Shown here: positions 8,706-32,256 of the stretch, one piece after another
Layout: each line of letters begins with the position of its first letter
How positions within the stretch are numbered: position 1 is the first letter of the stretch
Assembly: GCF_030817495.1 (NCBI RefSeq)
Contig: NZ_JAUSZK010000001.1
Span: forward strand, 2,335,001-2,399,000
Length of the DNA: 64,000 nt
DNA from: Streptomyces sp. V3I7
GTDB taxonomy: Bacteria; Actinomycetota; Actinomycetes; Streptomycetales; Streptomycetaceae
Direction of reading: 5' to 3'
Translations under genes and position numbers: made by a program
The notes under the pieces: model-generated
Database searches by the model: none
Told to the model about the DNA's origin: nothing
The model's input: only the letters and a program-made list of their open reading frames with translations

Positions 8706-8732
8706 CCGCAGCTGCGTTCGCCGGTACGTCGG

Positions 8733-8765
8733 CGGGGGCGCCCGGTGCTGCACCGGGCGCCCCCG
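8733..8765. terminator. Hairpin between convergent pepN and the monooxygenase
   Basis: A perfect 15-bp GC stem (8733-8747 with 8751-8765) with loop CTG, 28 bases after the pepN stop and 17 bases after the convergent monooxygenase stop. Confidence 0.85.
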
Positions 8766-8782
8766 TTCGTCGTGCGGCGGGC

Positions 8783-10258: not shown

Positions 10259-10277
10259 GGTGGACCCTCCTGGAGTG

Positions 10278-10418
10278 CCAACGCATGTGGGTCAACGCCT
10301 GTTTGTCAACGCTCGTTGGCAAGCGTAGGTTCGCCGCGACGGCGATGTCAACGATTGTTGGCCAACACTTGTTGGCCCACGTTTGTTGGCCCACGTTTGT
10401 TGGCCTACGCTCGATGGC
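10278..10418. repeat. Phased 14-bp operator-like array (8 clear units)
   Basis: Between the divergent monooxygenase and tetR genes, units of consensus CCAACGNNTGTTGG begin at 10278, 10292, 10306, 10348, 10362, 10376, 10390 and 10404. Every start is an exact multiple of 14 from the first. Two degenerate units would occupy 10320-10347. The core CAACG..TGTTG is an imperfect palindrome. The last unit abuts the tetR ATG at 10419, leaving no room for a ribosome binding site. This looks like a multi-site operator for the TetR protein. Repeats are seen directly; operator function is inferred. Confidence 0.85.
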
Positions 10419-11006
10419 ATGACCGCCATCAACGGGAGCGCCACCCGCCGCTCCGACGCCACCCGTAGTGCCATCCTCACCGCGGCCCGCGAGCGTTTCG
10501 CGTCCGACGGCTACGAGCGGGCCACCATTCGCGCGATCGCCAAGGACGCGGGCATCGACCCGTCGATGGTGATGCGCTACTACGGCAGCAAGGAGGGTCT
10601 CTTCGCGGCGGCCGTCGCGGTCGACCTGCGGATGCCGGACCTGACCGCGCTGCCGCGTGAGGAGATCGGCCGGGCCCTTGTCTCGCACTTCCTCGACCTG
10701 TGGGAGGACAACGGCGAGCTGACCGCCGTGCTCCGGGTCGGCGTCACCCATCAGGCGGGGGCCGAGCGCGTGCAGAGCATCTTCCGGGACCAGTTGCTGC
10801 CGGTGGTCCGGCAGGCGTGCCCGGATCCCGAGCAGGTCCCGGCGCGGGCCGTGCTGTGCGCCGCGCAGCTGCTCGGGCTGGCCCTCAGCCGCTACGTCCT
10901 GCGGCTGCCGTCGGCCGTGGCGCTGAGCCGCGAGGAGATCGTGGCGTGGCTCGCGCCCACCGTGCAGCGGTACGTGACGGCGCCGCACCCGGGGGTCAAC
11001 CCGTAG
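10419..11006 (+). CDS. TetR-family transcriptional regulator
   Basis: 195 residues. The N-terminal helix-turn-helix domain (about 15-62) reads TRSAILTAARERFASDGYE, ATIRAIAKDAGIDPSMV and MRYYGSKEGLF, a typical TetR DNA-binding domain. The C-terminal helical part resembles TetR ligand-binding domains. The ATG at 10419 is the only suitable start: the open frame extends 12 codons further left, but only into the 14-bp repeats, which contain no Shine-Dalgarno sequence. Leaderless translation is therefore likely. It probably represses both itself and the monooxygenase through the array and is relieved by the monooxygenase substrate; that is inference from position. Confidence 0.93.
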   Translation: MTAINGSATRRSDATRSAILTAARERFASDGYERATIRAIAKDAGIDPSMVMRYYGSKEGLFAAAVAVDLRMPDLTALPREEIGRALVSHFLDLWEDNGELTAVLRVGVTHQAGAERVQSIFRDQLLPVVRQACPDPEQVPARAVLCAAQLLGLALSRYVLRLPSAVALSREEIVAWLAPTVQRYVTAPHPGVNP

Positions 11007-19025: not shown

Positions 19026-20444
19026 GTGACACATACGTCGGAGAGCAGGGCTGCGCCCTCGGGGGCGGGGGCGGGCACCGTGCCCGTCGTGCCGCCTCAG
19101 CGGGGCTCGTCCGCGCCCGTTCCGGCCGCGCGGCGTACCGCCTTCGTCGAGGGCGTCGACCGGGTGCGGGCGGCCGCGACCACCGAGCCGGGCCGGTTGC
19201 GCGTGATCGGGGCCGTACTCGCGCTGCTGGTCCTCGCGTTCGGGGCGGTCACCGCCTGGCAGGCGACCGACCGCGCGGCCGCCGCCTCCGACGTGCTGCG
19301 CAGCAGCCAGCCGCTCAGTTCGGACGCGGCCGACATCTACCGCTCCCTCGCCGATGCCAACACGGCGGCCTCCAGCGGCTTCCTGGCGGGCGGGCAGGAG
19401 ACGGCGACCTCCCGCGAGCGCTACGAGAAGGACATCCGCACGGCCGCCGCGAAACTCGTGACGGCCGCCATCAGCTCCGAGCCCAACTCGCCCTCCGCCG
19501 AGGCGATATCCCGGCTCAACCGGCTGCTCCCGGAGTACAAGGGCCTGATCGAGCGGGCCCGGACGTACAACCGGCAGGGCTATCCGGTGGGCGGCGCGTA
19601 TCTGCGGTACGCCAACACCACGATGCAGGAGGAGATGCTTCCGGCGGCCGAGGAGCTGTACACGAAGGAGAATCAGCGGCTCCGGTCCGACTACGCGGAC
19701 GCGACGCCCTACCCGTGGGCCGCGATCGCCCTCGGTGTCCTCGCGCTGGCCGCGCTCGTCTGGGCCCAGCGTCGCACCTACCACCGGACGAACCGGGTCC
19801 TGAACCATGGCCTGGTGGCCGCCACGGCGGCCGCGGCGGTGGTGCTGCTCTGGCTCGTCGTCGGCCACACCGTCGCCCGCGCCGACCTCGTCCGCTCCTA
19901 CGACCACGGCATCCGCTCGCTGAACGCCCTGCACGACGCCCGCATCGCCTCGCTCAAGGCCCGCGGCAACGAGAACCTGAGCCTGGTGGCGCGCGGCGCC
20001 GACACGGTCAAGCTCGGCGACACCACGTACGACGCGTACTACTACGACTTCGAGCAGGAGATGGACGTCCTCGGCAAGGGCCTGGCCGAGGCCGGGAAGC
20101 TGGCCGACGACCAGGCCGGCAGCAGACCGGTGACGGCCGCCGAGAGCAGCATGGCGGTGTGGAAGAAGCGCCACGCGGCCGCCCGTACCGAGGACGAGAA
20201 CGGCAACTACCAGCAGGCGCTGGACAAGGTGATCGGCTCCGAGGGCGCGACCGGTGAGTGCTTCGACAACGTGGACGCGAGCCTGAGACGCGCACTGGCG
20301 CACGAGCAGACCGAGTTCAGGTACGCGGCCGGGGACGGACTGGGCGCGCTGGGCGGGCTGCCCGCCGGCGCCACCGTGCTCGCCGTCCTGGGCGCGGCGG
20401 GCGCGGTGCTCGGCATCGGGCGCCGGCTGTCGGAGTACCGGTGA
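19026..20444 (+). CDS. GlnX-like four-helix membrane sensor
   Basis: 472 residues from GTG 19026 (GGAGG 6 bases upstream). Four membrane segments: TM1 about 58-78, TM2 about 231-248, TM3 about 258-282, TM4 about 440-462. Two long, helical, Ala-rich extracytoplasmic regions lie between TM1-TM2 and TM3-TM4, like tandem four-helix-bundle sensors. Topology and position before a GlnH-like binding protein and a PknG kinase match mycobacterial GlnX, which passes the amino-acid signal from GlnH to PknG. The assignment rests on synteny and topology, not on sequence comparison. No catalytic motif. Confidence 0.75.
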   Translation: MTHTSESRAAPSGAGAGTVPVVPPQRGSSAPVPAARRTAFVEGVDRVRAAATTEPGRLRVIGAVLALLVLAFGAVTAWQATDRAAAASDVLRSSQPLSSDAADIYRSLADANTAASSGFLAGGQETATSRERYEKDIRTAAAKLVTAAISSEPNSPSAEAISRLNRLLPEYKGLIERARTYNRQGYPVGGAYLRYANTTMQEEMLPAAEELYTKENQRLRSDYADATPYPWAAIALGVLALAALVWAQRRTYHRTNRVLNHGLVAATAAAAVVLLWLVVGHTVARADLVRSYDHGIRSLNALHDARIASLKARGNENLSLVARGADTVKLGDTTYDAYYYDFEQEMDVLGKGLAEAGKLADDQAGSRPVTAAESSMAVWKKRHAAARTEDENGNYQQALDKVIGSEGATGECFDNVDASLRRALAHEQTEFRYAAGDGLGALGGLPAGATVLAVLGAAGAVLGIGRRLSEYR

Positions 20445-20464
20445 GCGGCGGGCCGTACCGGCGG

Positions 20465-20530
20465 AAGGGGCCGGGATACCGGTGACAGGGGTCGGGATAC
20501 CGGTGACAGGGGTGGGGTACGGGTGACAGG
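20465..20530. repeat. Tandem 21-22 bp repeat between glnX-like and glnH-like genes
   Basis: About three copies of a unit around GGGATACCGGTGACAGGGGT fill most of the 96-base gap; the third is degenerate (GGGGTACGGGTGACAGGGGG) and runs up to the ribosome binding site of the next gene. Likely a slippage product. Confidence 0.75.
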
Positions 20531-20540
20531 GGGTGTGGCG

Positions 20541-21590
20541 ATGAACGTACGGCGGGTGAGGGCGGCCCTGCGCGGCTGGGGCGGTGTCAGCGCGATGGCG
20601 GCCCTCTGCGCCCTCGTCCTGACGTTCGCTCTGCTGCTGCCGCTGACCCAGTCGTCCGGCGGCGGGGAGGGGCGCGGCGGGGTCACGGACCTGGCCGGAC
20701 CGCGCGTCGCCGTCGGCAGTCCGGCGCGGGCCGAGGACTGCGAGGAGTCGGAGGCACAGAAGCAGACGCTGCCGCCCTCGGGCGACGACGGTCCGGCCAT
20801 CGACGCCATCAAGTCCCGTACGGGAGCGAAGCGGAAGCTGATCGTCGGCATCGACCAGAACAGCTACCGCTGGGGCTACCGCAACCCCAATGCCGAGGGC
20901 GCGAAGCTGGAGGGCTTCGACATCGACCTGGTCCACCGGATCGCGGAGGACATCCTCGGCGACCCGGACGACGTCCAGTTCAAGGCCATACCCACCAGCC
21001 AGCGCATACCCGCGATCCAGGACGGCCGGGTCGACATGGTCGTCCGCGCGATGACCATCACCTGCGACCGCCTGGACCAAGTCGCCTTCTCCGCGCCCTA
21101 CTTCAAGACCGGGCAACAGGTGCTGGCGCCCAAGTCCTCGTCCATCAAGGGCTACGACGGCTCGCTCGCCGGCAAGCGCATCTGCACGGCGGCCGGTTCG
21201 ACGGCGTACGCCAAGCTGGAGGCGGACCGGCGTGCGGGCCGGCTGGCGTCCACCGCCGACATCTCCCTGACCGTGCCCAACCAGCTCGACTGCCTGGTCC
21301 GGCTCCAACTCGGCGAGGCCGACGCGGTGGTGACCGACGCCGCGCTCGCCGCGAGCCAGGCCGCGCAGGATCCGACGGTCGGGCTCCGGGGCACCGCGTT
21401 CACCACCGAGTACTACGGCGTGGCGATGAAGAAGGACGCCGACGATCTGGTACGCCGGGTGAACCGGATCCTGGAGGACTACCGGGCGAGCGGCTGGCAG
21501 CAGTCGTACGGCACGTGGCTGTCGGCCACACTGGGCAAGGACGCGTCACCGTCGAAGCCGCCCGCACCGGAGTATCTGCGCAAGAGCTGA
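20541..21590 (+). CDS. GlnH-like amino-acid-binding protein, membrane anchored
   Basis: 349 residues from ATG 20541 (GTG 20523 is an alternative lying in the repeat). One hydrophobic helix (about 17-36) is followed by a Gly/Ser linker and then a type-3 periplasmic-binding domain. That domain includes KLIVGIDQNSYRWGY, LEGFDIDLVHRIAEDIL, RIPAIQDGRVDMVVRAMTIT, CDRLDQVAFSAPYF and AGSTAYAKLE. There is no lipobox Cys, unlike the mycobacterial lipoprotein GlnH, so it is probably held by its N-terminal helix or cleaved. GlnH of mycobacteria binds aspartate and glutamate; the ligand here is inferred. Confidence 0.82.
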   Translation: MNVRRVRAALRGWGGVSAMAALCALVLTFALLLPLTQSSGGGEGRGGVTDLAGPRVAVGSPARAEDCEESEAQKQTLPPSGDDGPAIDAIKSRTGAKRKLIVGIDQNSYRWGYRNPNAEGAKLEGFDIDLVHRIAEDILGDPDDVQFKAIPTSQRIPAIQDGRVDMVVRAMTITCDRLDQVAFSAPYFKTGQQVLAPKSSSIKGYDGSLAGKRICTAAGSTAYAKLEADRRAGRLASTADISLTVPNQLDCLVRLQLGEADAVVTDAALAASQAAQDPTVGLRGTAFTTEYYGVAMKKDADDLVRRVNRILEDYRASGWQQSYGTWLSATLGKDASPSKPPAPEYLRKS

Positions 21591-21702
21591 CCGACAGGGG
21601 CCGATCCGCCCCGACCGACCGCGGGGGACGGCCCGCACCAAGAGCACGGCCGAGCACCGCCGGCACAGTTCCGTACGGCCAGTACCGCCTGTACCACCAG
21701 CC

Positions 21703-21744
21703 CCGCCAGTACCGTCAGCACCGCCAGTACCGTCAGCACCGTTC
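21703..21744. repeat. 18-bp direct repeat upstream of the coiled-coil gene
   Basis: CCGCCAGTACCGTCAGCA at 21703-21720 and again at 21721-21738, then a partial third copy. It lies in the 178-base gap after the binding-protein gene. No open frame with a start codon uses it convincingly. Confidence 0.7.
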
Positions 21745-21768
21745 CGACTACGCAGCGAGAGGTGATCG

Positions 21769-23130
21769 ATGAGCGTCACGGATCCCGCCGGGCCGGTGAT
21801 GGACCGGGACGAGGTGGACCGTGCGCTGGCGCGGCTCGGCTCGGAGCACGAGGCCATCGAGACCTCGCTCCTGGCCCTCCAGGACCACGCGGGCCGCCGA
21901 CTCCTCGAAGGAGCCCGCCTCACCGGCATCACCGAGGAGCGCTGGAGCGCCGCGGAGGCGTCGATCACCCTGCTGTGGACGTACTTCGACGCGTACACCG
22001 ACGCGCTGCGCGGCGCCCGCGAGATCCGCTCCCGCCGCCGCTGGTCCAGCCGCGAGGACCTGGTGGCGCTGACGGAGCTGCTGCGCGGCGAGTGCGTCAC
22101 GGTCGCGGACAGCGCGGCGGCGACCGCGCACGCGCCGAGGCCGCTGTCCGCGGCCGGCCGGCTCAGCGAACGGTTCACGCTGGCGGCCCTGGTGGAGCGG
22201 ATGAACGAGCTGTACGCCACCTCGCTGGACCTGGTGGTCGCCGCCGACACGGTGTGGTCGGCGCTGCCCGCCCGCATCGATTTACTGGCCGCGGAGCTCC
22301 GGCGCACCCGCACGCTCGCCCACTCCGTCGGCGTACGTCCCGGCGAACACCCGGCGGGCGACGACCTGGAGCGCATCACGCGCACCCTGACGCGGCTGCG
22401 CGAAGAGGTCGTCTCCGATCCGCTCGCCTACTGGGTTCCCTCGCCCGGCAGTTCGGCTCCGGGGGGCGGCCGGCCGGACACCACGGTGTACGACCGGGAG
22501 GCGCGCGCGCTGGAGGACGTACGCCGGGAGATCGACGCGGTGCTGACGGTCCGCCAGGACGCCGAGCAGCGGCTGGTCCGGCTGCGGGACGTGCTCTCCC
22601 GCGCGGACCGCACGCTCGCCGAGGCGCGCACGGCGCGCGGCGAGGTCCTCGCGAAGATCGCCGCCACCGAGGTCCCCGTGGTCAGCGGGCCCTCGACCGT
22701 CCTGCACGAGCAGTTGGCGACCGCCGCCGAGTACCGACGGCACGCCCAATGGCACCGCCTCTCGCCGCTCCTGGAGTCGCTGGAGCAGCGGGCGGAGGAC
22801 GAACTGCTGCGCGCCCGCGAGTCGTTGACGGAGGTCACCGCGCCGCTCGCGGTCCGCGCGGAGCTGCGCGGCCGGCTCGACGCGTACAAGGCGAAGGTCG
22901 CCCGGCACGGGCTGGCGGAGGACGCGTTCCTCGTCGAGCGGTACGACGCGGCGCGCCGCATGCTGTGGAGCGCGCCCTGCGATCTGCGCGTCGCCGAACA
23001 GGCCGTACTGCGCTACCAGCAGGCGGCCGCCGAACTGCTCAGCACCCCGCGGGTGCCGCAGCAGGGCGGACCGCAGGACCCGCAGCACCCGCAGCACCCG
23101 CAGCACCCGCAGCACCCGAGGGAGGAGTAG
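21769..23130 (+). CDS. Helical cytosolic protein of the PknG locus
   Basis: 453 residues from ATG 21769 with GAGAGG 6 bases upstream. No signal peptide or membrane segment. Long charged, Leu/Ala/Arg-rich helices (for example residues 245-310 and 330-400) suggest coiled coils. The extreme C-terminus is a Gln-His-Pro repeat encoded by a 9-bp DNA repeat. No known domain recognised. It lies between the GlnH-like and PknG-like genes, a position with no gene in the mycobacterial operon, and is 6 bases from PknG, so a scaffold or regulator of the kinase is plausible. Confidence 0.78.
   Translation: MSVTDPAGPVMDRDEVDRALARLGSEHEAIETSLLALQDHAGRRLLEGARLTGITEERWSAAEASITLLWTYFDAYTDALRGAREIRSRRRWSSREDLVALTELLRGECVTVADSAAATAHAPRPLSAAGRLSERFTLAALVERMNELYATSLDLVVAADTVWSALPARIDLLAAELRRTRTLAHSVGVRPGEHPAGDDLERITRTLTRLREEVVSDPLAYWVPSPGSSAPGGGRPDTTVYDREARALEDVRREIDAVLTVRQDAEQRLVRLRDVLSRADRTLAEARTARGEVLAKIAATEVPVVSGPSTVLHEQLATAAEYRRHAQWHRLSPLLESLEQRAEDELLRARESLTEVTAPLAVRAELRGRLDAYKAKVARHGLAEDAFLVERYDAARRMLWSAPCDLRVAEQAVLRYQQAAAELLSTPRVPQQGGPQDPQHPQHPQHPQHPREE
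23074..23118. repeat. 9-bp tandem repeat encoding Gln-His-Pro
   Basis: Five in-frame units of CAGSACCCG at the 3' end of the preceding gene. Length variation here would change only the tail of the protein. Confidence 0.85.
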
Positions 23131-23136
23131 CCGGCC

Positions 23137-25662
23137 ATGAGTCAGGCGGGACAGACGTGCCAGCGGCCCGGCTGCGACGGCACGTACGAGGACATGGGCG
23201 GCGGCGAGCTGTACTGCGGCACCTGCGGTCTGGCGCCGGTCGTCTCGGTCACCGGGACGGTCGCCTCGCCGCCCACGGGACTCGCCGGCGGCGGCTCGGC
23301 GAGCGGCACCAACTCGCGCTCCACCGCCGGTTCGCGCACGTCCTCGCAGTCGTCGCGGTCGCGGCGCTCGGTGTCGGGACGGCTCTCCCGCTCGCTGTCG
23401 GGCGGGGCGGGCGGGCGCTCGGTGTCGGTGCGCGGCGCCGGTTCCGCCGCCGGGTCGTCCGGGCGCGGCCGGCTGGGCGCGGGTCTGGTGGCGGTGGAGC
23501 AGGTGCCGCGGCCCGACCCGCGCGCGAGGGTGCTGGAGAACCCCGAGGTGCCCGAGCGCAAGCGGTTCTGCTCACGCTCGGACTGCGCGGCGCCGGTGGG
23601 GCGTTCACGGGGTGAGCGGGCGGGGCGGACGGAGGGGTTCTGCACCAAGTGCGGGCACCCGTACTCGTTCGTGCCGAAGCTGCGGGCCGGGGACATCGTG
23701 CACGGCCAGTACGAGGTCGCGGGCTGTCTGGCGCACGGCGGTCTTGGCTGGATCTACCTCGCGGTGGACCGGGCGGTGGCGGACCGATGGGTGGTGCTCA
23801 AGGGTCTGCTGGACACCGGCGACCAGGACGCGATGGCCGCCGCGATCTCCGAGCGCCGCTTCCTCGCGGAGATCGAGCACGCCAACATCGTGCGGATCTA
23901 CAACTTCGTGGAGCACCTCGACCAGCGCACCGGCTCCCTCGACGGCTACATCGTCATGGAGTACGTCGGCGGCCGCTCGCTCAAGGACATCGCCAACGCC
24001 CGCCGGACGGTGGACGGCAGGCGTGATCCGCTGCCGGTGGAGCAGGCGTGCGCGTACGGCATCGAGGCCCTGGAGGCGCTCGGCCATCTGCACGACCGCA
24101 ACCTGCTGTACTGCGACTTCAAGGTGGACAACGCGATCCAGACCGAGGACCAGCTCAAGCTGATCGACATGGGCGCCGTGCGGCGGATGGACGACGAGGA
24201 GTCGGCGATCTACGGCACGATCGGCTACCAGGCGCCGGAGGTCGCCGAGGCGGGCCCGTCGGTGGCCAGCGACCTCTACACGGTGGGCCGGACCCTGGCC
24301 GTGCTGACCTTCGACTTCCAGGGCTACACGAGCACCTACACGGACGCGCTGCCCGACCCCGACCACATCGAGGTCTTCCGCCGCTACGAGTCCTTCTACC
24401 GCCTGCTGGTCCGCGCGACCGACCCGGACCCGGCGCGCCGCTTCGCCTCCGCGCAGGAGATGTCCGATCAGCTGACCGGCGTCCTGCGGGAGGTCGTCTC
24501 CCTCCAGACGGGCCGGGCCCGCCCCGCCCTCTCGACGCTGTTCGGTCCCGAACCGAGGGTCACCGACACGGAGTTGTTCCCGCGGATCACGGGGGACGTC
24601 TCGCGCCTGGGGGTCCGCGGCCCCTCCCCGGCGGCAGCCTCCTCCGCAGCGGCTTCGTCCGTCCCGGCCCTCTCCCCGGGCCTCGTGCGGCCCGTCGCCA
24701 CGGCCGCCGCCGCGCTCGCGCTGCCCGCCCCGCTCGTCGACCCCGCCGACCCCAACGCCGGTTTCCTCGCCGGCCTGCTGGCGCCCGCGCCGGCCGAGCT
24801 GATCAGCGCCCTCGCCGGAGCGCCGAGCCGGACCCTGGAGACCCGGCTACGGCTGGTCCGCGCCCGGCTGGAGAACGGTGAAGCCGAGACCGCGCTCGCG
24901 TCACTGGCGGAGCTGGAGGCCGAACGGCCCGACGACTGGCGGGTGGTGTGGTGCCGGGGCGTGGCCGCGCTGGTCACGGGCGACTTCGAGGCCGCCGCCC
25001 CGGCCTTCGACGCGGTGTACGACGCCTTCCCCGGCGAGGCCGCGCCCAAGCTGGCGCTCGGCCTGTGCGCGGAGGTGCTGGGCCAGCTGGACAACGCCGC
25101 CGAGTACTACCGCCTGGTGTGGTCGACCGACCCGAGCTTCGTGAGCGCGGCGTTCGGCCTGGCGCGCGTGCAGCTCGCGTCGGGCGACCGGCAGGGCGCC
25201 GTACGGACGCTGGAGTCGGTTCCGGAATCGTCGATCCACTACACGGCGGCGCGCGTGGCCGCCGTACGGGCGCGGCTGCGCGAGCGCGCGGCGGGCGCGG
25301 CGGACGGGGCGGGCGGGTCGTTCCCGGACGAGGCGGACGGGTCGTTCCTGGACGATCTGACCGCGGCCGCCGGCCAGGTGGAGGCCCTCGACGCGTACGG
25401 TCTGGACCCGGCGCGCCGGGAGCAGTTGTCGGCGGAAGTGCTCGGCTGCGCGCTCGACTGGATACTCTCCGGAGGCCAGGGCGTCCCGCCGGCCGCCGGC
25501 GGCGGGGGACGGGTGCTGCTCGGCAGCGGCCTGGACGAGCGGGGGCTCCGCTTCGGACTGGAGCGCTCGTACCGCACGCTGGCCAGGCTCGCGCCCGGCG
25601 GCGAGGAGAGGATCGACCTGGTGGAACGGGCCAACCGTTACCGCCCCCGGACGTGGGTGTAG
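23137..25662 (+). CDS. pknG: PknG-type serine/threonine protein kinase
   Basis: 841 residues. The layout is that of PknG: N-terminal metal-binding Cys motifs, kinase, C-terminal TPR. CQRPGCDGTYEDM with CGTCG (about 8-30) is a zinc ribbon. A second Cys set (FCSRSDC and FCTKCGHPYSF) lies directly before the kinase. The kinase starts near 192 with LAHGGLGWIYLAVDR; the lysine is K222 in WVVLKG, the catalytic Asp327 is in YCDFKVDN, and DMG replaces DFG at Asp344. From about 560 the sequence is helical repeats. In mycobacteria PknG phosphorylates the FHA protein GarA to control glutamate metabolism. Here the PP2C gene follows 3 bases later. Confidence 0.93.
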   Translation: MSQAGQTCQRPGCDGTYEDMGGGELYCGTCGLAPVVSVTGTVASPPTGLAGGGSASGTNSRSTAGSRTSSQSSRSRRSVSGRLSRSLSGGAGGRSVSVRGAGSAAGSSGRGRLGAGLVAVEQVPRPDPRARVLENPEVPERKRFCSRSDCAAPVGRSRGERAGRTEGFCTKCGHPYSFVPKLRAGDIVHGQYEVAGCLAHGGLGWIYLAVDRAVADRWVVLKGLLDTGDQDAMAAAISERRFLAEIEHANIVRIYNFVEHLDQRTGSLDGYIVMEYVGGRSLKDIANARRTVDGRRDPLPVEQACAYGIEALEALGHLHDRNLLYCDFKVDNAIQTEDQLKLIDMGAVRRMDDEESAIYGTIGYQAPEVAEAGPSVASDLYTVGRTLAVLTFDFQGYTSTYTDALPDPDHIEVFRRYESFYRLLVRATDPDPARRFASAQEMSDQLTGVLREVVSLQTGRARPALSTLFGPEPRVTDTELFPRITGDVSRLGVRGPSPAAASSAAASSVPALSPGLVRPVATAAAALALPAPLVDPADPNAGFLAGLLAPAPAELISALAGAPSRTLETRLRLVRARLENGEAETALASLAELEAERPDDWRVVWCRGVAALVTGDFEAAAPAFDAVYDAFPGEAAPKLALGLCAEVLGQLDNAAEYYRLVWSTDPSFVSAAFGLARVQLASGDRQGAVRTLESVPESSIHYTAARVAAVRARLRERAAGAADGAGGSFPDEADGSFLDDLTAAAGQVEALDAYGLDPARREQLSAEVLGCALDWILSGGQGVPPAAGGGGRVLLGSGLDERGLRFGLERSYRTLARLAPGGEERIDLVERANRYRPRTWV

Positions 25663-25665
25663 TTC

Positions 25666-27033
25666 ATGTCGCAGATGCCCCAGAAGGCCGCGCTGTCGAA
25701 GTGCCCGAGCTGCGCGGAGCCGCTCGAGTCGGGTGACCGTTTCTGCGGTGCGTGCGGTTACGACCTGTCGGCGGTGCCCGCCCGCCCGCAGGACGGCCCG
25801 ACGCCGACCCTGAACGGCGCGGGTGACGCCGCCGAGGACGGTGTGGCCTGGCCCGCCGCCCCGGAACCGGACACCTCCGGCGCCTCGGCGCGGGAACACC
25901 TGCCGTCGGACCTCCAGGCCGTCTCCTCGGCCGACACCACGCCGCCGGAACCACCGGGGCCGATGGATCCGGCAGGTCCGACGGGTCCGTCTTCGGGCGT
26001 ACGGTTCGACCGGGCGGCGGAGCCGGAGGAGTACCCGCTCCAGGCACCGGACCCGCGAGTGCCCGCGCCCCCCGCCGAGGAGGCGGACGAGGCGGACGAG
26101 GCGGACGAGGCGGACGAGGCGAAGATCTGCGTGGCCTGCCGGGCGGGACGGGTCGACGGAGACGGCTACTGCGAGAACTGCGGGCACGCCCAGCCGCGCG
26201 AACGCGACCACGTGGAGCAGGAGTCGGGGCCGATCGCGGCCGTCAGCGACCGCGGGCTGCGCCACCACCGCAACGAGGACGCCTTCGCCGTCGGCCGGAC
26301 CACGCTCCCCGACGGCTCGCCCGTCGCGCTCGCGGTCGTCTGCGACGGCGTCTCCTCGGCGACCCGTCCCGACGACGCGTCGCTGGCCGCGTCGCGGGCG
26401 GCGAGCGAGGCTCTGCTCGCCGCGCTGCCGCGCGGTACGCATCCGCAGCAGGCCCTGCACGAGGCGATCGTCGCCGCCTCGCACGCCGTCGACGCGCTGG
26501 CCGAGGAGCCCGCCACGGCCCGCGAGCACAGCCCGCACCAGAACGCCCCGGCCTGCACGCTCGTCGCCGCGGTCGTCACCGGCGGCCTGCTGGTCGTCGG
26601 CTGGGTCGGCGACAGCCGCGTCTACTGGGTGCCGACGGACCGCGACGCTCCCCCGGCCCGGCTCACCGAGGACGACTCCTGGGCCGCGCAGATGGTCGCC
26701 GCCGGCCTGATGAGCGAGGCGGAGGCGTACGCCGACGAGCGCGCCCACGCGATCACCGGCTGGCTCGGCGCGGACGCCTACGAACTGGAGCCGCACACCG
26801 CGTCCTTCAAGCCTGACCGGCCGGGCGCGGTCGTGGTCTGCACGGACGGCCTGTGGAACTACGCGGAGACGGCCGGGGAGATGGCCGAGATCCTGCCGCC
26901 CGACGCAGGCACCCGCCCGCTGCACAGCGCACAGGTGCTCCTCGGCCACGCCCTGGACGGCGGGGGCCACGACAACGTAACAGTGGCCGTTCTGCCGTTC
27001 CCCCTCCCGCCGCAGGGGGCAGGATCGGTCTGA
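25666..27033 (+). CDS. PP2C-type protein phosphatase with two zinc ribbons
   Basis: 455 residues, start ATG 25666 only 3 bases after the kinase stop, with no clear ribosome binding site; coupling is likely. Zinc ribbon 1 has C13, C16, C27 and C30 (CPSC...CGACG). A Pro-rich linker ends in an EAD repeat, then zinc ribbon 2 has C155, C158, C169 and C172. The PP2C domain (about 187-450) keeps its metal ligands: HHRNEDAF (Asp205), VVCDGVSS, VVVCTDGLWNY and GGHDNVTVAV. The usual DGMGG is changed to DGVSS. It is the natural partner to reverse the kinase in this locus. Cytosolic. Confidence 0.93.
   Translation: MSQMPQKAALSKCPSCAEPLESGDRFCGACGYDLSAVPARPQDGPTPTLNGAGDAAEDGVAWPAAPEPDTSGASAREHLPSDLQAVSSADTTPPEPPGPMDPAGPTGPSSGVRFDRAAEPEEYPLQAPDPRVPAPPAEEADEADEADEADEAKICVACRAGRVDGDGYCENCGHAQPRERDHVEQESGPIAAVSDRGLRHHRNEDAFAVGRTTLPDGSPVALAVVCDGVSSATRPDDASLAASRAASEALLAALPRGTHPQQALHEAIVAASHAVDALAEEPATAREHSPHQNAPACTLVAAVVTGGLLVVGWVGDSRVYWVPTDRDAPPARLTEDDSWAAQMVAAGLMSEAEAYADERAHAITGWLGADAYELEPHTASFKPDRPGAVVVCTDGLWNYAETAGEMAEILPPDAGTRPLHSAQVLLGHALDGGGHDNVTVAVLPFPLPPQGAGSV
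26080..26121. repeat. 9-bp tandem repeat encoding Glu-Ala-Asp
   Basis: About 4.7 units of GAGGCGGAC inside the PP2C gene, making a run of EAD triplets just before the second zinc ribbon. Confidence 0.88.
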
Positions 27034-27160
27034 GGCCGCGCACGGGCGCGTAGCGGCGCGCAGGGCGCACACGGGGAAGGCCTCGGCGGAGCGGAGGGGA
27101 CCGGTCCGCACCAGCCGTCTCCCACGCGACCGTGGGGCTCACAGGGGGGAGCAGTACGGG

Positions 27161-28507
27161 ATGGCCGATTTCTCGAAACCGAACATGCCGCGGTTCTCGG
27201 TGGACGTGTACCAGAACGAGTACCTGCCGGAGGGCGGCCGTGAGGTCAACGCCGTCGTCACCGTGACGGCGACCGGCGGCGGCACCCTCGCGAGCGCCGT
27301 CGCGGCGCCCCACCTGTACTCCCCCGGCGCGGGCCCGTCCGCCGCCGTGGCGGTCATGGTCGACTGCTCCGGGTCGATGGACTACCCGCCGGCCAAGATG
27401 CGGGGCGCCCGTGACGCCACGGCGGCGGCCATCGACACCCTGCGCGACGGCGTCCACTTCGCGGTCATCGGCGGCACGCACCTGGCCCGGGAGGTCTACC
27501 CGGGCGACGGCCGGCTCGCGGTCGCCGGCCCCACCACCCGCGAGCAGGCCAAGCAGGCGCTGCGCCGGCTGAGCGCGGGCGGCGGTACGGCCATCGGGAC
27601 CTGGCTGCGGCTCGCCGACCGGCTGCTGTCCTCGGTGGACGTGGACATCCGGCACGGCATCCTGCTCACCGACGGCCGCAACGAGCACGAGTCGCCGCAG
27701 GACCTGCGCGCGACGCTCGACTCCTGTGCCGGGCGCTTCACTTGTGACGCGCGGGGCGTGGGCACCGACTGGGAAGTGAAAGAAGTCACATCGATCGCCT
27801 CCGCGCTGCTCGGCGGGGCCGACATCGTCGCCGATCCGGCGGGCCTGGCCGCCGACTTCACCGGGATGATGGAGACGGCGATGGGCAAGGAGGTCGCGGA
27901 CGTCGCCCTGCGGGTGTGGACACCGGTCGGCACGGCCATCAGGTTCGTCAAGCAAGTCGCGCCCGCCGTCGAGGACCTGACCGGCCGTCGTACCGAGGCG
28001 GGCCCGCGCGCCGGGGACTATCCCACCGGTTCCTGGGGCGAGGAGTCCCGCGACTACCACCTGTGCGTCGAGGTGCCCGTGGCGGGCCTCGGCCAGGAGA
28101 TGCTGGCCGCCCGGGTCTCCCTGGTCGTGCTCCAACCCGACGGCGGCACACAGAACCTGGGCGCGCAGGGCCTCGTACGGGCCGTGTGGACCGACGACCT
28201 GGCCGCCTCGACCTCCATCGATCCCCAAGTCGCCCACTACACGGGCCAGGCGGAACTGGCCCATGCCATCCAGCAAGGCATCGATCTGCGCAAAGCGGGC
28301 GATATGGATGGAGCAACGGCCAAACTGGGCAGGGCGGTTCAGCTCGCCAGTGCCTCGGGAAACGCCGATACCGCCAGACTGCTCTCGAAGGTGGTGGACG
28401 TCGTCGACGCCGCGACGGGTACTGTGCGACTGAAGGCGAAGGTCGCCGAGGCCGACGAGATGACCCTCGAGACACGGTCCACGAAGACTGTTCGCGTGAA
28501 GAAGTGA
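27161..28507 (+). CDS. VWA-domain protein of the PknG locus
   Basis: 448 residues from ATG 27161 (AGGGGGGAGC upstream). A von Willebrand factor A domain (about 60-240) keeps the metal-ion-dependent adhesion site: DCSGSMD from Asp68, the Thr in GGGTAIGTWLRLAD, and the Asp in ILLTDGRNEHES. The rest resembles beta-sandwich plus helical segments with the QQGIDLRKAGDMDGATAKLG tail. Such proteins in kinase/phosphatase/FHA loci probably act as metal-dependent interaction modules. No signal peptide. Follows PP2C by 127 bases, so it may have its own promoter or be read through. Confidence 0.88.
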   Translation: MADFSKPNMPRFSVDVYQNEYLPEGGREVNAVVTVTATGGGTLASAVAAPHLYSPGAGPSAAVAVMVDCSGSMDYPPAKMRGARDATAAAIDTLRDGVHFAVIGGTHLAREVYPGDGRLAVAGPTTREQAKQALRRLSAGGGTAIGTWLRLADRLLSSVDVDIRHGILLTDGRNEHESPQDLRATLDSCAGRFTCDARGVGTDWEVKEVTSIASALLGGADIVADPAGLAADFTGMMETAMGKEVADVALRVWTPVGTAIRFVKQVAPAVEDLTGRRTEAGPRAGDYPTGSWGEESRDYHLCVEVPVAGLGQEMLAARVSLVVLQPDGGTQNLGAQGLVRAVWTDDLAASTSIDPQVAHYTGQAELAHAIQQGIDLRKAGDMDGATAKLGRAVQLASASGNADTARLLSKVVDVVDAATGTVRLKAKVAEADEMTLETRSTKTVRVKK

Positions 28508-28543
28508 CCCGGCACAACCTAAAGAACTGACCCGGCACAACCT
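28505..28543. repeat. 16-bp direct repeat over the VWA stop codon
   Basis: TGACCCGGCACAACCT occurs at 28505-28520, where it begins with the TGA stop, and again at 28528-28543. A short tandem duplication with a 23-base period in the 71-base gap before the FHA gene. Confidence 0.85.
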
Positions 28544-28578
28544 CAGGAAGACCCTGACAGAGAGGGTGAAGCGCCGAC

Positions 28579-29832
28579 ATGCCGACCTGCCCGAACGGAC
28601 ACCAGTCGGGTTCCGACGACTGGTGCGAGGTCTGCGGTCACCGCATGGCCGGTGCCGTACCTCCGCCGCCTCCGCCGCCGGGCGGGGGCTACGGCTTCCC
28701 GCCGCCCGCCGGTGGCCCCGCCGGCCGGCCGGGACGCCCGCCCATGGGCTTCCCGAACCCGGACCCGGAGCTCTGCCCGCAGTGCCGCACGCCCCGCGAG
28801 GGCGGCGCGCCGTTCTGCGAGGAGTGCCGGTGGAACTTCCTCACGAACACGGCCACCTCGTACACCCCGCCGGCCCCGGCCGCCCCGCGCCCGCCGACAT
28901 CGGCCCAGGCGACGCAGTTCCCGCCGCCGGGCCAGTCGTACGGCGGCGGTGACGCGTTCGAGTACCAGGGCTCGCGTCCGTCGCAGATCAACCGTCCCGC
29001 CGAGCCGATCCCGCCGGGCCCGCTGGGCAACGAGCCGTCCGGGCCGACGCCCTTCGGCACCGATCCGTCGCGCTCGGTGCCGCCGCAGTCCGGGCCGCCG
29101 CGGTCCGGTCCCGGTGCCCCGGCCGGTGGCCCGGGTGCCACGTCGAGCGGGCTTCCGGCCTCGTTCCTGCAGTCCGGTCCTCCCCCGGCACCGGCTGCTC
29201 CCGCCTTCCCGCAGGAGACGGAGCGGCCCCCGGCGGGCGGTGCGTCCTCCGGCGGCGGTGACGACTGGGTGATCTCCCCGCCCTCGCCCACCAGCCCGGG
29301 CGGCCCCGGTGCCGGCGGCCAGGGCGGCTACGGCTTCCCGCAGCCCGGCGCCTCCCAGGCCCCGCCGAGCCCTGCCTTCCCGCAGGCCCCGCAGGCACCC
29401 CAGGCCCCGCAGACTCCGCAGGCCCCGGCGACCTGGACCGCGACGATCGGTCCGGACCGCGAGTACTTCATGGCGATGATGCAGCGCTCCGGCCCCGAGG
29501 CCGCGGGCCTGAACCTGCCCGCGTACTCGCCCGAGCAGCAGCGCATGCTCACCGGCAGCCAGCTGACCATCGGCCGCCGTCGGCACTCCACCGGTGACAC
29601 CCCCGACATCGACCTGTCGGTGCCGCCGGAGGACCCGGGCGTCTCACACCAGCACGCGGTCCTGGTCCAGCAGCCGAACGGCGGCTGGGCGGTCGTCGAC
29701 CAGAACTCGACGAACGGGACGACGGTCAACGGCGGCGAGGACCCGATCCAGCCCTTCGTGCCGGTGCCGCTCCAGGACGGCGACCGGGTGCATGTCGGCG
29801 CCTGGACGACGATCACCATCCGCCGGGGCTGA
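28579..29832 (+). CDS. FHA-domain protein with N-terminal zinc ribbons
   Basis: 417 residues. Two N-terminal Cys clusters: CPNGHQSGSDDWCEVCGHRM (C4, C16, C19), and CPQC with CEEC (C66, C69, C80, C83). A long Pro/Gly/Ala-rich linker (about 100-270) leads to a C-terminal FHA domain (about 328-416). The FHA has GRRR, SVSHQHA-type strands (GVSHQHAVLV) and NSTNGTTVNGG, the phosphothreonine-binding signature. In mycobacteria PknG acts on the FHA protein GarA; this is the local FHA protein and an obvious candidate partner. However, it lacks GarA's short size and I see no ETTS motif near its N-terminus. Last gene of the locus. Confidence 0.92.
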   Translation: MPTCPNGHQSGSDDWCEVCGHRMAGAVPPPPPPPGGGYGFPPPAGGPAGRPGRPPMGFPNPDPELCPQCRTPREGGAPFCEECRWNFLTNTATSYTPPAPAAPRPPTSAQATQFPPPGQSYGGGDAFEYQGSRPSQINRPAEPIPPGPLGNEPSGPTPFGTDPSRSVPPQSGPPRSGPGAPAGGPGATSSGLPASFLQSGPPPAPAAPAFPQETERPPAGGASSGGGDDWVISPPSPTSPGGPGAGGQGGYGFPQPGASQAPPSPAFPQAPQAPQAPQTPQAPATWTATIGPDREYFMAMMQRSGPEAAGLNLPAYSPEQQRMLTGSQLTIGRRRHSTGDTPDIDLSVPPEDPGVSHQHAVLVQQPNGGWAVVDQNSTNGTTVNGGEDPIQPFVPVPLQDGDRVHVGAWTTITIRRG

Positions 29833-29857: not shown

Positions 29858-30856
29858 TCAACTCCGCAGGGGCCAGCGGTACGGCCCCTGCGGATCGTCC
29901 AGCCATGCCCACTCGTGCCCGCCGTCGATCGTGACGCCGTACCGCTCGCGCGCGGGCGCGCCCTCGCACTCCCACACCTCGTACGCCTCCCGGGCATCGA
30001 GGCTGCCGCGGGTCAGGGCCAGCAGAAACCGGAACAGGTCGTGGTCGCGGGCCGGGCGCGGCACTGTGGCCAGGGGCGCCGGTTCCCGCTCGGGCCGGCG
30101 CTCGCCGCGCAGGGGCACGAAGTAGGCCGGCGTGGACAGGAAGCGGCCCTCGGCGTGCCCGGCGTCCCGCACGGTCAGCGCGACCAGGCCGGTGCCCAGG
30201 GGCGTCAGGATGCGGCCGCCGGAGCGGCACTGGGCGAGCCAGGCGAGCGGCACCGAGGGCAGCGTGCAGGTCGCGATGATCCGGTCGAAGGGGGCGCGTT
30301 CGGGAACCCCGCGCGCGCCGTCCCCGGTGACCACGGCCGGGTGGTACCCGGCGGCGGCCAGGTGCTGCCGCGCCGCCTCGGTGATCTCCGGTTCCAGGTC
30401 GATGGTGGTGACGAGGCCGTCGTCGCCCAGCCGGTACGCGAGCAGCGCCGCGTTGTAGCCCGTACCGGCGCCGATCTCCAGGACCCGGTCGCCGTCGCGG
30501 ACGCGGAGTGCGACGAGCATCATCGCCATCAGCGAGGGCTGACTGCTGGAGGAGACCAGCTCGCCGTCGCGCACCCGGGTGGCCAGCGGGGCGTCGGCGT
30601 AGGCGCCGCGCAGCCAGCGCTCGCGCTCGCCGGGGTCGGGGCTCTGGCTCCAGCAGCGCTCGTAACCGCCGAGGACGCCGACGTAGTAGAAGGGCACGAA
30701 CAGGTGCCGCGGCACCTCGGCGAACGCCTCCCGCCACACCGGGTCCTCGGCCCAGGCCCCGCTCGCGTCGATCTCGCGCACCAGCGCCGCCCGTGCCGTG
30801 GCGGCGAGGCGGGCCGGTCCCTGGCCGTCGGTGTCGAGTGCAGCGTGCGCGCCCAT
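29858..30856 (-). CDS. Protein-L-isoaspartate O-methyltransferase-like protein
   Basis: 332 residues from ATG 30854-30856 (MGAHAALDTDGQGPARLAA). The family pattern is clear: PRHLFVPFYY, SSSSQPSLMAMML, then the SAM-binding motif VLEIGAGTGYNAALLAY and VTTIDLEPEI, and FDRIIATC. These enzymes methylate isoaspartyl residues for protein repair, but in actinobacteria many PCMT-like proteins have other roles, including in maturation of modified peptides. It is longer than classical Pcm (about 210). Convergent with the FHA gene (25 bases between stops, no hairpin seen). Divergent from the haemoglobin gene across an 11-bp repeat array. Confidence 0.88.
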   Translation of the reverse strand: MGAHAALDTDGQGPARLAATARAALVREIDASGAWAEDPVWREAFAEVPRHLFVPFYYVGVLGGYERCWSQSPDPGERERWLRGAYADAPLATRVRDGELVSSSSQPSLMAMMLVALRVRDGDRVLEIGAGTGYNAALLAYRLGDDGLVTTIDLEPEITEAARQHLAAAGYHPAVVTGDGARGVPERAPFDRIIATCTLPSVPLAWLAQCRSGGRILTPLGTGLVALTVRDAGHAEGRFLSTPAYFVPLRGERRPEREPAPLATVPRPARDHDLFRFLLALTRGSLDAREAYEVWECEGAPARERYGVTIDGGHEWAWLDDPQGPYRWPLRS

Positions 30857-30937
30857 GGGTCCACTGTGCGGCCCGGCACGCCCCGAGGCGAGCACCGGCC
30901 GGGCGGATGGCCGCGCCCATGGCCGGATTCCGGCCGT

Positions 30938-31014
30938 GATCCGGGCCTGATCCGAACCTGGTACGGGCCTGGTACGGGCCTGATCCGGGCCTGATGCGGG
31001 CCTGATCCGGGCCT
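30938..31014. repeat. 11-bp tandem repeat array (7 units) in a divergent promoter gap
   Basis: Seven contiguous units start at 30938, 30949, 30960, 30971, 30982, 30993 and 31004, with consensus GRTNCGGGCCT; an eighth degenerate unit follows. The period is exactly 11 bp, about one helical turn. It lies between the divergent methyltransferase and haemoglobin genes. Repeats are seen directly; any regulatory role is inferred. Confidence 0.88.
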
Positions 31015-31028
31015 GGTCCAGACGGGAG

Positions 31029-31047
31029 GTCCTAGGACTGAAGTCCT
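31029..31047. promoter_or_regulatory. Overlapping palindromes upstream of the haemoglobin gene
   Basis: GTCCTAGGAC (31029-31038) overlaps AGGACTGAAGTCCT (31034-31047). They lie about 30 bases before the GTG start and immediately after the 11-bp array, a typical operator position. Confidence 0.45.
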
Positions 31048-31075
31048 GGGTCGTGGCTTCTGAGACCATGGACGG

Positions 31076-31480
31076 GTGAGAGAGATTCGGCGCGGCACGC
31101 TTCAGGAGAAGACCTTCTACGAGCAGGTCGGCGGGGAGGAGACCTTCCGTCGGCTCGTCCACCGTTTCTACGAGGGGGTCGCGGAGGACCCGCTGCTGCG
31201 GCCCATGTACCCGGAGGAGGACCTGGGGCCGGCCGAGGAGCGGCTGACCCTGTTCCTGATCCAGTACTGGGGCGGCCCGACCACGTACAGCGACAACCGC
31301 GGCCACCCGCGCCTGCGCATGCGCCACGCCCCCTTCACCGTCGACCGCGCGGCGCACGACGCCTGGCTGAGGCACATGCGGGTGGCGGTCGAGGAACTCG
31401 GCCTCTCCGAGGAGCACGAGCACACGCTGTGGAACTACCTGACGTACGCGGCGGCTTCGATGGTGAACACCCCGGAGTGA
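31076..31480 (+). CDS. Group II truncated haemoglobin (GlbO type)
   Basis: 134 residues from GTG 31076. Features of truncated globins: YEQVGGEETFRRLVHRFYEGV, the PMYPEEDLGPAEERLTLFL segment, QYWGGP, then GHPRLRMRHAPF, whose His before APF is the proximal haem ligand. W in NYLTYAAASM-type H helix context and AHDAWLRHM fit group II. It binds oxygen or nitric oxide in the cytosol and is generally tied to oxidative or nitrosative stress. Monocistronic. Confidence 0.93.
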   Translation: MREIRRGTLQEKTFYEQVGGEETFRRLVHRFYEGVAEDPLLRPMYPEEDLGPAEERLTLFLIQYWGGPTTYSDNRGHPRLRMRHAPFTVDRAAHDAWLRHMRVAVEELGLSEEHEHTLWNYLTYAAASMVNTPE

Positions 31481-31522
31481 CCGCTTCGGCGTGACGGTCC
31501 CGACGTAAGGACGAACGGCGCC

Positions 31523-31584
31523 TGACCTGGTCACGAACGCTGAGCGGCCCCGGGCTCGGGGGCGTTCGTACGGGAGCCAGGTCA
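31523..31584. terminator. Compound inverted repeat between convergent genes
   Basis: TGACCTGG (31523-31530) pairs with 31577-31584 and ACGAACGC (31533-31540) with 31562-31569, forming a long interrupted stem at the junction of two stops. Confidence 0.7.
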
Positions 31585-32256
31585 GCGCACGCTGACGTCC
31601 AGCGCCCCAAGTCCTGTCCGTCGTACGGCGATCGACCCGTACGCCGTACGCAGCCTCAGCCACGCCCCCGATGAGAGCAGGGCGACGTCCCCCGCTCCCT
31701 CGGGACGCAGGAAGCCCAGTGACTGCGCCGCGTGCACGGCGCGCACCGGGAGCGGGGTCTCCCCGACCGTCCTGGACCAGATGTCCCGTCCGAGCCGGTC
31801 GAGCTCGGCACGGGTACGCCGCTCCGGCGCCAACTCCTGCGTACGGGACCGGAATTCGGCGACGACCGCGGCGACCAGTGCCCGCAGCGTCGCCACGGCC
31901 GGCAGCCCCGGTTCGGCCCGCCAGCCGCCGCGCGGTGGCAGCACGCCCGCCCACGGCGGTCCGGTGACCGCGGCCGGGACGGCGGCCGTGGCCCCCGCCT
32001 CGTCCACGCTCTCCAGCAGTTCACCGGCGGAGACGGTCACGTCGAGGGTGCCGTCGAGCCCGATCTCGTAGGGCTTGGCGAGCCGTACGGAACGGATCGC
32101 CAGCACCTCGAAGGACGGCGGCCGCCCGAACACGGCGAGCGTGGTCCCCGCGCACTGCAGACGCACCGCTGCTCCACGGTCGTAGTGGAGCAGCCGTGAG
32201 AGGAAGGCCGCGAGGTCCGCCGCCTCCCCTTCGTCGGCGAGGTGGAGCACCGTCAT
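31582..32256 (-). CDS. Conserved actinobacterial protein of unknown function
   Basis: 224 residues from ATG 32254-32256, overlapping the stop of the upstream thioesterase gene, so coupled to it. Starts MTVLHLADEGEAADLAAFLSRLL. No signal peptide, membrane segment or catalytic motif seen; the middle is Ala/Val-rich and the end is beta-like (RLRTAYGSIAVRRTGLGALDVSVR). The position after ettA and a thioesterase gene gives no firm functional hint. Confidence 0.75.
   Translation of the reverse strand: MTVLHLADEGEAADLAAFLSRLLHYDRGAAVRLQCAGTTLAVFGRPPSFEVLAIRSVRLAKPYEIGLDGTLDVTVSAGELLESVDEAGATAAVPAAVTGPPWAGVLPPRGGWRAEPGLPAVATLRALVAAVVAEFRSRTQELAPERRTRAELDRLGRDIWSRTVGETPLPVRAVHAAQSLGFLRPEGAGDVALLSSGAWLRLRTAYGSIAVRRTGLGALDVSVR

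Follow-up and report, generated by a model that had tools for sequence, protein, structure and literature searches.

The protein kinase PknG is known mainly from mycobacteria and corynebacteria, where it stands with GlnX and GlnH (PMC6069109, PMC2784874). Side-chain contacts of mycobacterial GlnH with its ligand are made by Arg147, Thr162, and Trp232 (PMC6069109), and the PknG site in both OdhI and GarA is the first Thr of an ETTS motif (PMC2784874). A second described system that has to be considered is the ArnA/ArnB complex of Sulfolobus, whose assembly depends on a kinase and which PP2A takes apart again, both according to nutrients; most phosphorylation of ArnB falls in the C-terminal part, which is also where the zinc-finger FHA protein ArnA binds (PMC6509490, PMC7472852). 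A paralog of ArnB, vWA2, shares its tripartite fold with 4FX5 (PMC6509490). Here we analyzed a window of 64,000 nucleotides from Streptomyces sp. V3I7 (contig NZ_JAUSZK010000001.1, positions 2,335,001 to 2,399,000; genome size, 6.55 Mb) that contains an extended PknG locus, in which seven plus-strand open reading frames (ORFs) at 19026-29832 follow each other in the order GlnX, GlnH, hel (helical protein), PknG, PP2C, VWA, and FHA, with the following features:

19026..20444, + strand: GlnX-family membrane protein of 472 amino acids with four hydrophobic segments by hydropathy (NCBIfam NF058618, 499.2 bits, cut-off 250)
20523..21590, + strand: GlnH-type solute-binding protein with an N-terminal hydrophobic anchor and no clear lipobox (SBP_bac_3; 6h1u, E 1.8e-42)
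21769..23130, + strand: hel, a helical rod protein with a C-terminal RxELRGxLxAY...PCDL motif (conserved alignment; model with a predicted local distance difference test score, pLDDT, of 90.6)
23137..25662, + strand: PknG, composed of an N-terminal zinc ribbon, rubredoxin, kinase, and TPR parts (PF16919, PF00069, PF16918; 2pzi, E 9e-166)
23158..23226, + strand: additional zinc ribbon at the PknG N-terminus (called from the Cys pattern in the sequence)
25666..27033, + strand: PP2C phosphatase that has two zinc ribbons and in which the catalytic motifs are intact (PF13672, PF13240)
27161..28507, + strand: VWA protein with a metal ion-dependent adhesion site (MIDAS) motif and VWA_3_C (Pfam VWA_3_C and VWA_2; 4fx5, E 1.1e-135)
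28457..28504, + strand: Thr-rich C-terminal tail of the VWA protein with the core ETRSTKTVR, a candidate phosphosite (conserved sequence)
28579..29832, + strand: FHA protein with two zinc ribbons (Cys pattern), a Pro-rich linker, and a C-terminal FHA domain (PF00498)

The presence of seven same-strand genes with these identities had been proposed in an earlier annotation made from the sequence alone (the sequence-only reading) and was confirmed by the ORF coordinates and by Pfam and NCBIfam matches. In Pfam, GlnH matched SBP_bac_3 and PknG matched PknG_TPR, PknG_rubred, and Pkinase, all above the cut-offs, while the PP2C gene corresponded to PP2C_2 and Zn_Ribbon_1, the VWA gene to VWA_3_C and VWA_2, and the FHA gene to FHA. 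Neither GlnX nor hel matched any Pfam family; GlnX scored 182.1 bits against the mycobacterial GlnX equivalog NF041460, which is under its cut-off of 780, and hel had no NCBIfam family. The alignment of PknG to 2pzi spanned the rubredoxin, kinase, and TPR parts, with the catalytic Lys and Asp present, and the array VWA was the sole VWA_3_C match in its genome. The catalytic PP2C motifs, the VWA MIDAS, and the phospho-Thr-binding FHA residues were retained in nearly all aligned rows, the exceptions being an FHA Arg replaced by Lys in L194, NGT changed to NRT in L157, and the PP2C of L184, which is without N-terminal motifs (gene split over frames). For hel, the C-terminal motif was conserved in an alignment across five families and the structure model was a confident helical rod; the model matched no PDB fold at E<=0.001 (best, 0.53), and a PDB profile search with the alignment gave weak matches, mostly to coiled coils or helical bundles (best, 4.6e-05). 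The gaps between hel and PknG (6 bases) and between PknG and PP2C (3 bases) make this trio nearly contiguous, and a promoter and terminator scan of the locus was uninformative.

To compare gene order, we used loci of about 20 kb around PknG matches picked from class- and phylum-wide searches, and genes were mapped with profiles built from Streptomyces only and then iterated, so that sequences used in the building score high by construction. The main set comprised 77 loci, from which L127 (G369, broken) and L128/L210 (G334, one locus with a split pknG) were left out; L210 is among the 78 loci of the ribbon counts and in the VWA-tail shuffles given below, and two loci, L171 and L190, are truncated because their contigs end there. 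Families are given by our labels (f1, f3, and so on), with names where assigned. The 80 best named PknG relatives that were kept all come from Streptomyces. In 73/80 of these loci the seven genes were complete, in the same order, and on a single strand, and the other seven consisted of six that miss genes on contigs ending nearby and one (L058) whose FHA match is anomalous and lies at the end of its contig. Within the 77-locus set, all seven genes were found in order in 12/12 Streptomyces loci and in 8/14 loci of f90 (Frankiaceae by inference), and all seven were present in the single f83 locus (1/1) and in 2/4 f7 loci, the remaining two missing only a detectable hel. Half of the f89 (Streptosporangiaceae) loci (9/18) read hel-pknG-pp2c-vwa-fha-glnX-glnH, i.e., with glnX-glnH downstream, and in G189, a genome of another class, the five core genes were accompanied by glnX-glnH on the opposite, convergent strand. 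The order pknG-pp2c-vwa-fha was seen in 28/39 loci of f7, f41, f83, f89, f90, and f98, in 12/12 of Streptomyces, and in 1/18 of f3 (Mycobacteriaceae by inference), where glnX-glnH-pknG made up 13 loci, pknG alone 4, and the full array 1 (G719). Both f113 loci (2/2) were of the three-gene glnX-glnH-pknG type. The order hel-pknG-pp2c was found in all 39 loci where those three were detected. The prediction that the extended locus would be conserved outside close relatives thus passed the gene-order comparison, in several actinomycete families and in G189, and, on these sequence comparisons, the extended PknG cassette is real and conserved across actinomycete families. Among open-licence PMC papers, no listed title or abstract opening described PknG with PP2C, VWA, and FHA, and no paper joining PknG to "zinc ribbon" was found.

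Several individual loci are also recorded here. G719 has four PknG copies (L191-L194), one of them with the full seven-gene array, and a second locus in G607 of f113 (L325) has hel, PknG, VWA, and a weak GlnX match, with no PP2C or FHA found. In second copies of f90 (L180, L182, L183), PknG faces a convergent GlnH-GlnX pair, and in L183 the FHA gene precedes PknG. The hel protein of L163 (f89) shows 100% identity to one from Planobispora takensis. In L128/L210 (G334), an otherwise complete array has pknG split over two frames, by sequencing error or recent damage. In the window, a convergent gene at 29858-31954 (- strand) encodes a PCMT-type methyltransferase (TIGR04188, below cut-off), which is a frequent neighbor of the array in Streptomyces.

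The N-terminal zinc ribbons that the sequence-only reading had ascribed to PknG, PP2C, and FHA were likewise seen in the sequences and were common across array loci. Ribbons were called by Cys pattern, and among these three proteins only that of PP2C was also a Pfam match. PknG carried the N-terminal ribbon in 38/43 array loci, in 1/18 loci with GlnX-GlnH-PknG only (L164, f89), and in 7/17 others; at least one ribbon was present in PP2C of 42/43 array loci and in FHA of 40/42. When the genome of the window was scanned, the pattern was detected in two kinases, both of PknG type, out of the 18 that were readable (21 scanned), with the 16 others devoid of it, in 1 of 3 readable PP2C proteins (5 scanned), namely that of the array, and in 2 of 7 FHA loci (from 8 matches; two of the seven loci gave the same frame), namely the array FHA and GarA. 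The ribbon pattern in PknG, PP2C, and FHA is therefore not genomic background. The GarA in question is a separate protein with an ETTS phosphosite, encoded 1.4 Mb away from the array (L211:1459-2289, - strand), in which the N-terminal zinc ribbon lies before the ETTS site. Such a GarA ribbon was present in f1 (11/11), f89 (16/16), f90 (12/12), f7 (4/4), f83 (1/1), and f41 (1/1), and absent from f3 (0/9), f113 (0/2), and the f98 genome; since this distribution follows phylogeny, it represents few independent events.

We then looked at the VWA C-terminus. A DEMxLDTxST[KR]TVR-like pattern, strict and written after inspecting the tails, was present in 36/41 array loci versus 0/8 loci without PP2C (5/10000 shuffles). 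Among 41 Streptomyces VWA sequences (the window and 40 taken from 75 found), ETRSTKTVRVK was present in 41/41, and 40/41 end in VKK. The solved structure 4FX5 from Catenulispora acidiphila is a full-length homolog of the array VWA with the same C-terminal STKTVR tail. Furthermore, in the Streptomyces VWA paralogs L124-L126 a related motif, DST[KR]T, precedes a ribbon at the C-terminus, and a PknG-type paralog was paired with a VWA in 5/6 paralog loci. The PknG paralog of the window's own genome is paired in this way as well: in L122 (G000:C1:6432000-6451900), genes at about 7038-10843 encode a second kinase of PknG type (ribbon pattern, rubredoxin, kinase, and TPR) and a VWA bearing a C-terminal zinc ribbon, and similar pairs occur in other Streptomyces. 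By analogy with ArnB and from its conserved sequence, the Thr-rich VWA tail is a candidate both for phosphorylation by PknG and for binding by the FHA protein.

With regard to the input, the equivalent of Arg147 was kept in 29/29 aligned GlnH rows, and the ligand is plausibly acidic or acid-like. In the GlnH of the window, Thr162 corresponds to Ala and Trp232 to Gln (by a hand-counted mapping); as two side-chain contacts out of three are changed, the comparison gives no support to the assumption that the system responds to the same amino acids (Asp/Glu). This GlnH has no clear lipobox but a hydrophobic anchor, and a simple lipobox pattern was found in 1/13 f1 rows.

These findings led us to hypothesize that the locus is a conserved actinobacterial PknG signaling cassette, a reading based on sequence and analogy to which we assign a probability of roughly 0.45. 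According to this hypothesis, GlnH would bind an extracellular amino-acid-like ligand, GlnX would relay the ligand state across the membrane, and PknG would be activated via its TPR region to phosphorylate the C-terminal Thr tail of VWA as well as GarA, which is encoded elsewhere. The phosphorylated tail would then be bound by the zinc-ribbon FHA protein, giving a VWA-FHA complex that PP2C would dissolve by stripping the phospho-mark, while the zinc ribbons on PknG, PP2C, FHA, and GarA may help to gather the partners and hel may act as a rod-shaped scaffold. The cassette shares with the GlnX-GlnH-PknG-GarA/OdhI pathway of Mycobacterium and Corynebacterium (PMC6069109, PMC2784874) the sensor, the membrane protein, the rubredoxin-TPR kinase, and a GarA with ETTS, whereas it differs from it in having four extra genes, ribbons on PknG and GarA, an altered GlnH pocket, and no clear lipobox.

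A number of observations weigh against this hypothesis: (i) the structure model of VWA was poor (pLDDT 35.8), so that its fold rests on homology to 4fx5; (ii) in Streptosporangiaceae, four VWA tails have SVRT instead of ST[KR]T and one tail is absent; (iii) G719 combines a full array with a ribbon-free GarA, the GarA of the f98 genome, where PknG-PP2C-FHA lie on a cut contig, is likewise free of a ribbon, and G607 has, besides its second locus with hel, PknG, and VWA in which PP2C and FHA are missing, a ribbon-free GarA too; (iv) in G455 and G547, PknG, PP2C, and FHA are kept, yet a genome-wide search at E<=1e-10 gave no VWA, so a VWA-FHA pairing is not obligatory; (v) the zinc module of ArnA is a RanBP2-type zinc finger, not a ribbon; and (vi) hel, PP2C, and FHA persist in 3/3 Streptomyces without PknG.

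The last point concerns the three genomes, among the 40 same-genus genomes listed, that had no PknG match at E<=1e-20 (G369, G635, and G667). In G635 and G667 (L326, L327), at the corresponding locus with the same flanking genes, hel, PP2C, and FHA were kept, glnH was missing from the locus, and PknG was gone or a remnant; genome-wide, neither GlnX (E<=1e-5) nor VWA (E<=1e-10) was matched, and since the GlnX search missed G573, G455, and G547 (GlnX-positive by profile), such a zero is safe only for close relatives, e.g., G635 and G667. In G369 (L127), glnX, glnH, pknG, and vwa were in pieces, and hel, PP2C, and FHA were open. VWA was thus lost with PknG in 3/3 of these genomes (in pieces in one). 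These loss patterns point to two sub-modules, sensor-kinase-VWA and hel-PP2C-FHA, and the retention of the latter without PknG implies an additional use for it, perhaps with other kinases. They also contradict the strictly closed write-read-erase module of the sequence-only reading. The same data speak for a rival view with two independent units: GlnX-GlnH-PknG would have GarA as its target, like its mycobacterial counterpart, and hel-PP2C-FHA, whether or not joined by VWA, would serve other kinases, e.g., of PknB type. The occurrence of GlnX-GlnH-PknG alone in 13/18 f3 and 2/2 f113 loci is in line with this, as is the second GarA Thr (PknB-type site), which was present in 57/57 sequences, though the pattern for 53 of them required T-S. 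However, PknG sits between hel and PP2C in every one of the 39 loci with the three detected, VWA disappears together with PknG, and the ribbons are common to PknG, PP2C, FHA, and GarA, with none detected in the remaining 16 kinases that could be read in this genome. We regard two independent units as possible, if on the unlikely side.

The sequence-only reading had further proposed that the FHA protein, instead of GarA, is the kinase target, with PP2C as the dedicated eraser. Adjacency, conserved order, and the preserved FHA and PP2C residues speak for such a closed module. The GarA of the window genome (L211) speaks against it: it scored 184.4 bits against the OdhI/GarA family NF041660, just under the cut-off of 200, and its solved relatives at E<=1e-10 were all (8 of 8) GarA/OdhI (best, 3.6e-45), whereas the array FHA protein reached 21.6 bits, far under that cut-off, and has no ETTS. 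Because a GarA with ETTS exists elsewhere in the genome, the array FHA is no replacement for it, and this part of the proposal was not supported; a weaker form of it may hold, given that several array-bearing families lack the GarA Thr that PknG phosphorylates. A GarA match was also obtained in 56/56 other genomes tested. The first GarA Thr, the PknG-type site (rows L260, L261, and L266 and the phosphosite of L257 were taken from a second reading), was present in f1 (11/11), f3 (9/9), f83 (1/1), f41 (1/1), and 4/16 of f89, and absent from f90 (0/12), f7 (0/4), f113 (0/2), and f98 (0/1); this absence, together with that in the other 12/16 f89 rows, counts in favor of the closed module. However, seven of those 12 f89 rows have Ser (the other five, Val), which could still be a target, and in f113 the Thr is lost although neither PP2C nor FHA turned up next to PknG, so that its loss does not track the array. 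Conversely, the three Streptomyces that lack PknG have the first Thr too, and a GarA with this Thr therefore does not prove that PknG acts on it; in addition, as described above, these species retain PP2C and FHA. A closed module in which the array FHA rather than GarA is the PknG target is, in our judgment, improbable.

A conflict or defense system is very improbable: triads of a kinase (often with a zinc ribbon), PP2C, and a standalone vWA have been described as neighbors beside GAP1-N2 systems in actinobacteria (PMC7159879), features that the cassette shares, but its kinase is a PknG with GlnX-GlnH and is joined by FHA and hel at a core locus, PADLOC at E<=1e-5 returned kinase matches only and none for the other six proteins, the strong synteny across named Streptomyces is unlike a defense island, and the cassette is tied to a nutrient sensor family.

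Returning to the signaling cassette, a more specific version of it may be put forward, which we offer tentatively and think rather unlikely as a whole: amino-acid sensing would build and dissolve a ribbon-tagged VWA-FHA assembly, with PknG as writer, FHA as reader, and PP2C as eraser, making it a bacterial counterpart of ArnA/ArnB, and the three-gene mycobacterial PknG operon would be its reduced descendant. An N-terminal zinc module plus FHA beside a vWA of the 4FX5/vWA2 fold is found here, as judged by homology, and the two systems resemble each other in C-terminal Thr sites, nutrient input, and kinase and phosphatase partners. They differ in that ArnA/ArnB is archaeal, works with other kinases and with PP2A rather than PP2C, and has no GlnX or GlnH described in the available text, while phospho-dependence in the cassette is predicted.

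As for the direction of evolution, in a PknG tree of 78 rows (the window plus the 77 loci), those f3 loci that lack the four additional genes were placed beside the f3 full array, with a Shimodaira-Hasegawa-like approximate likelihood ratio (SH-aLRT) support of 99, inside array lineages, and an outgroup-rooted kinase tree agreed on the f3 placement, its deep forks being weakly supported. A topology in which f3 splits first was not rejected by the approximately unbiased (AU) test (p-AU 0.76 and 0.67), and the tree constrained to it scored better; a single clade of all array loci was rejected (p 2e-61), a test confounded by nested GlnX-GlnH-only rows. We therefore lean toward the mycobacterial three-gene operon being a reduction of the cassette, and since the f3-first topology was not rejected, loss in mycobacteria is a lean and not a result.

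In Streptomyces, a genus open to genetic work, the cassette names a candidate dedicated phosphatase, a candidate reader, and a candidate new PknG substrate. Natural knock-outs exist as well, in the form of species from which PknG, VWA, or the ribbons have been lost. Other PknG substrates and the opposing phosphatase thereby become directly testable questions.

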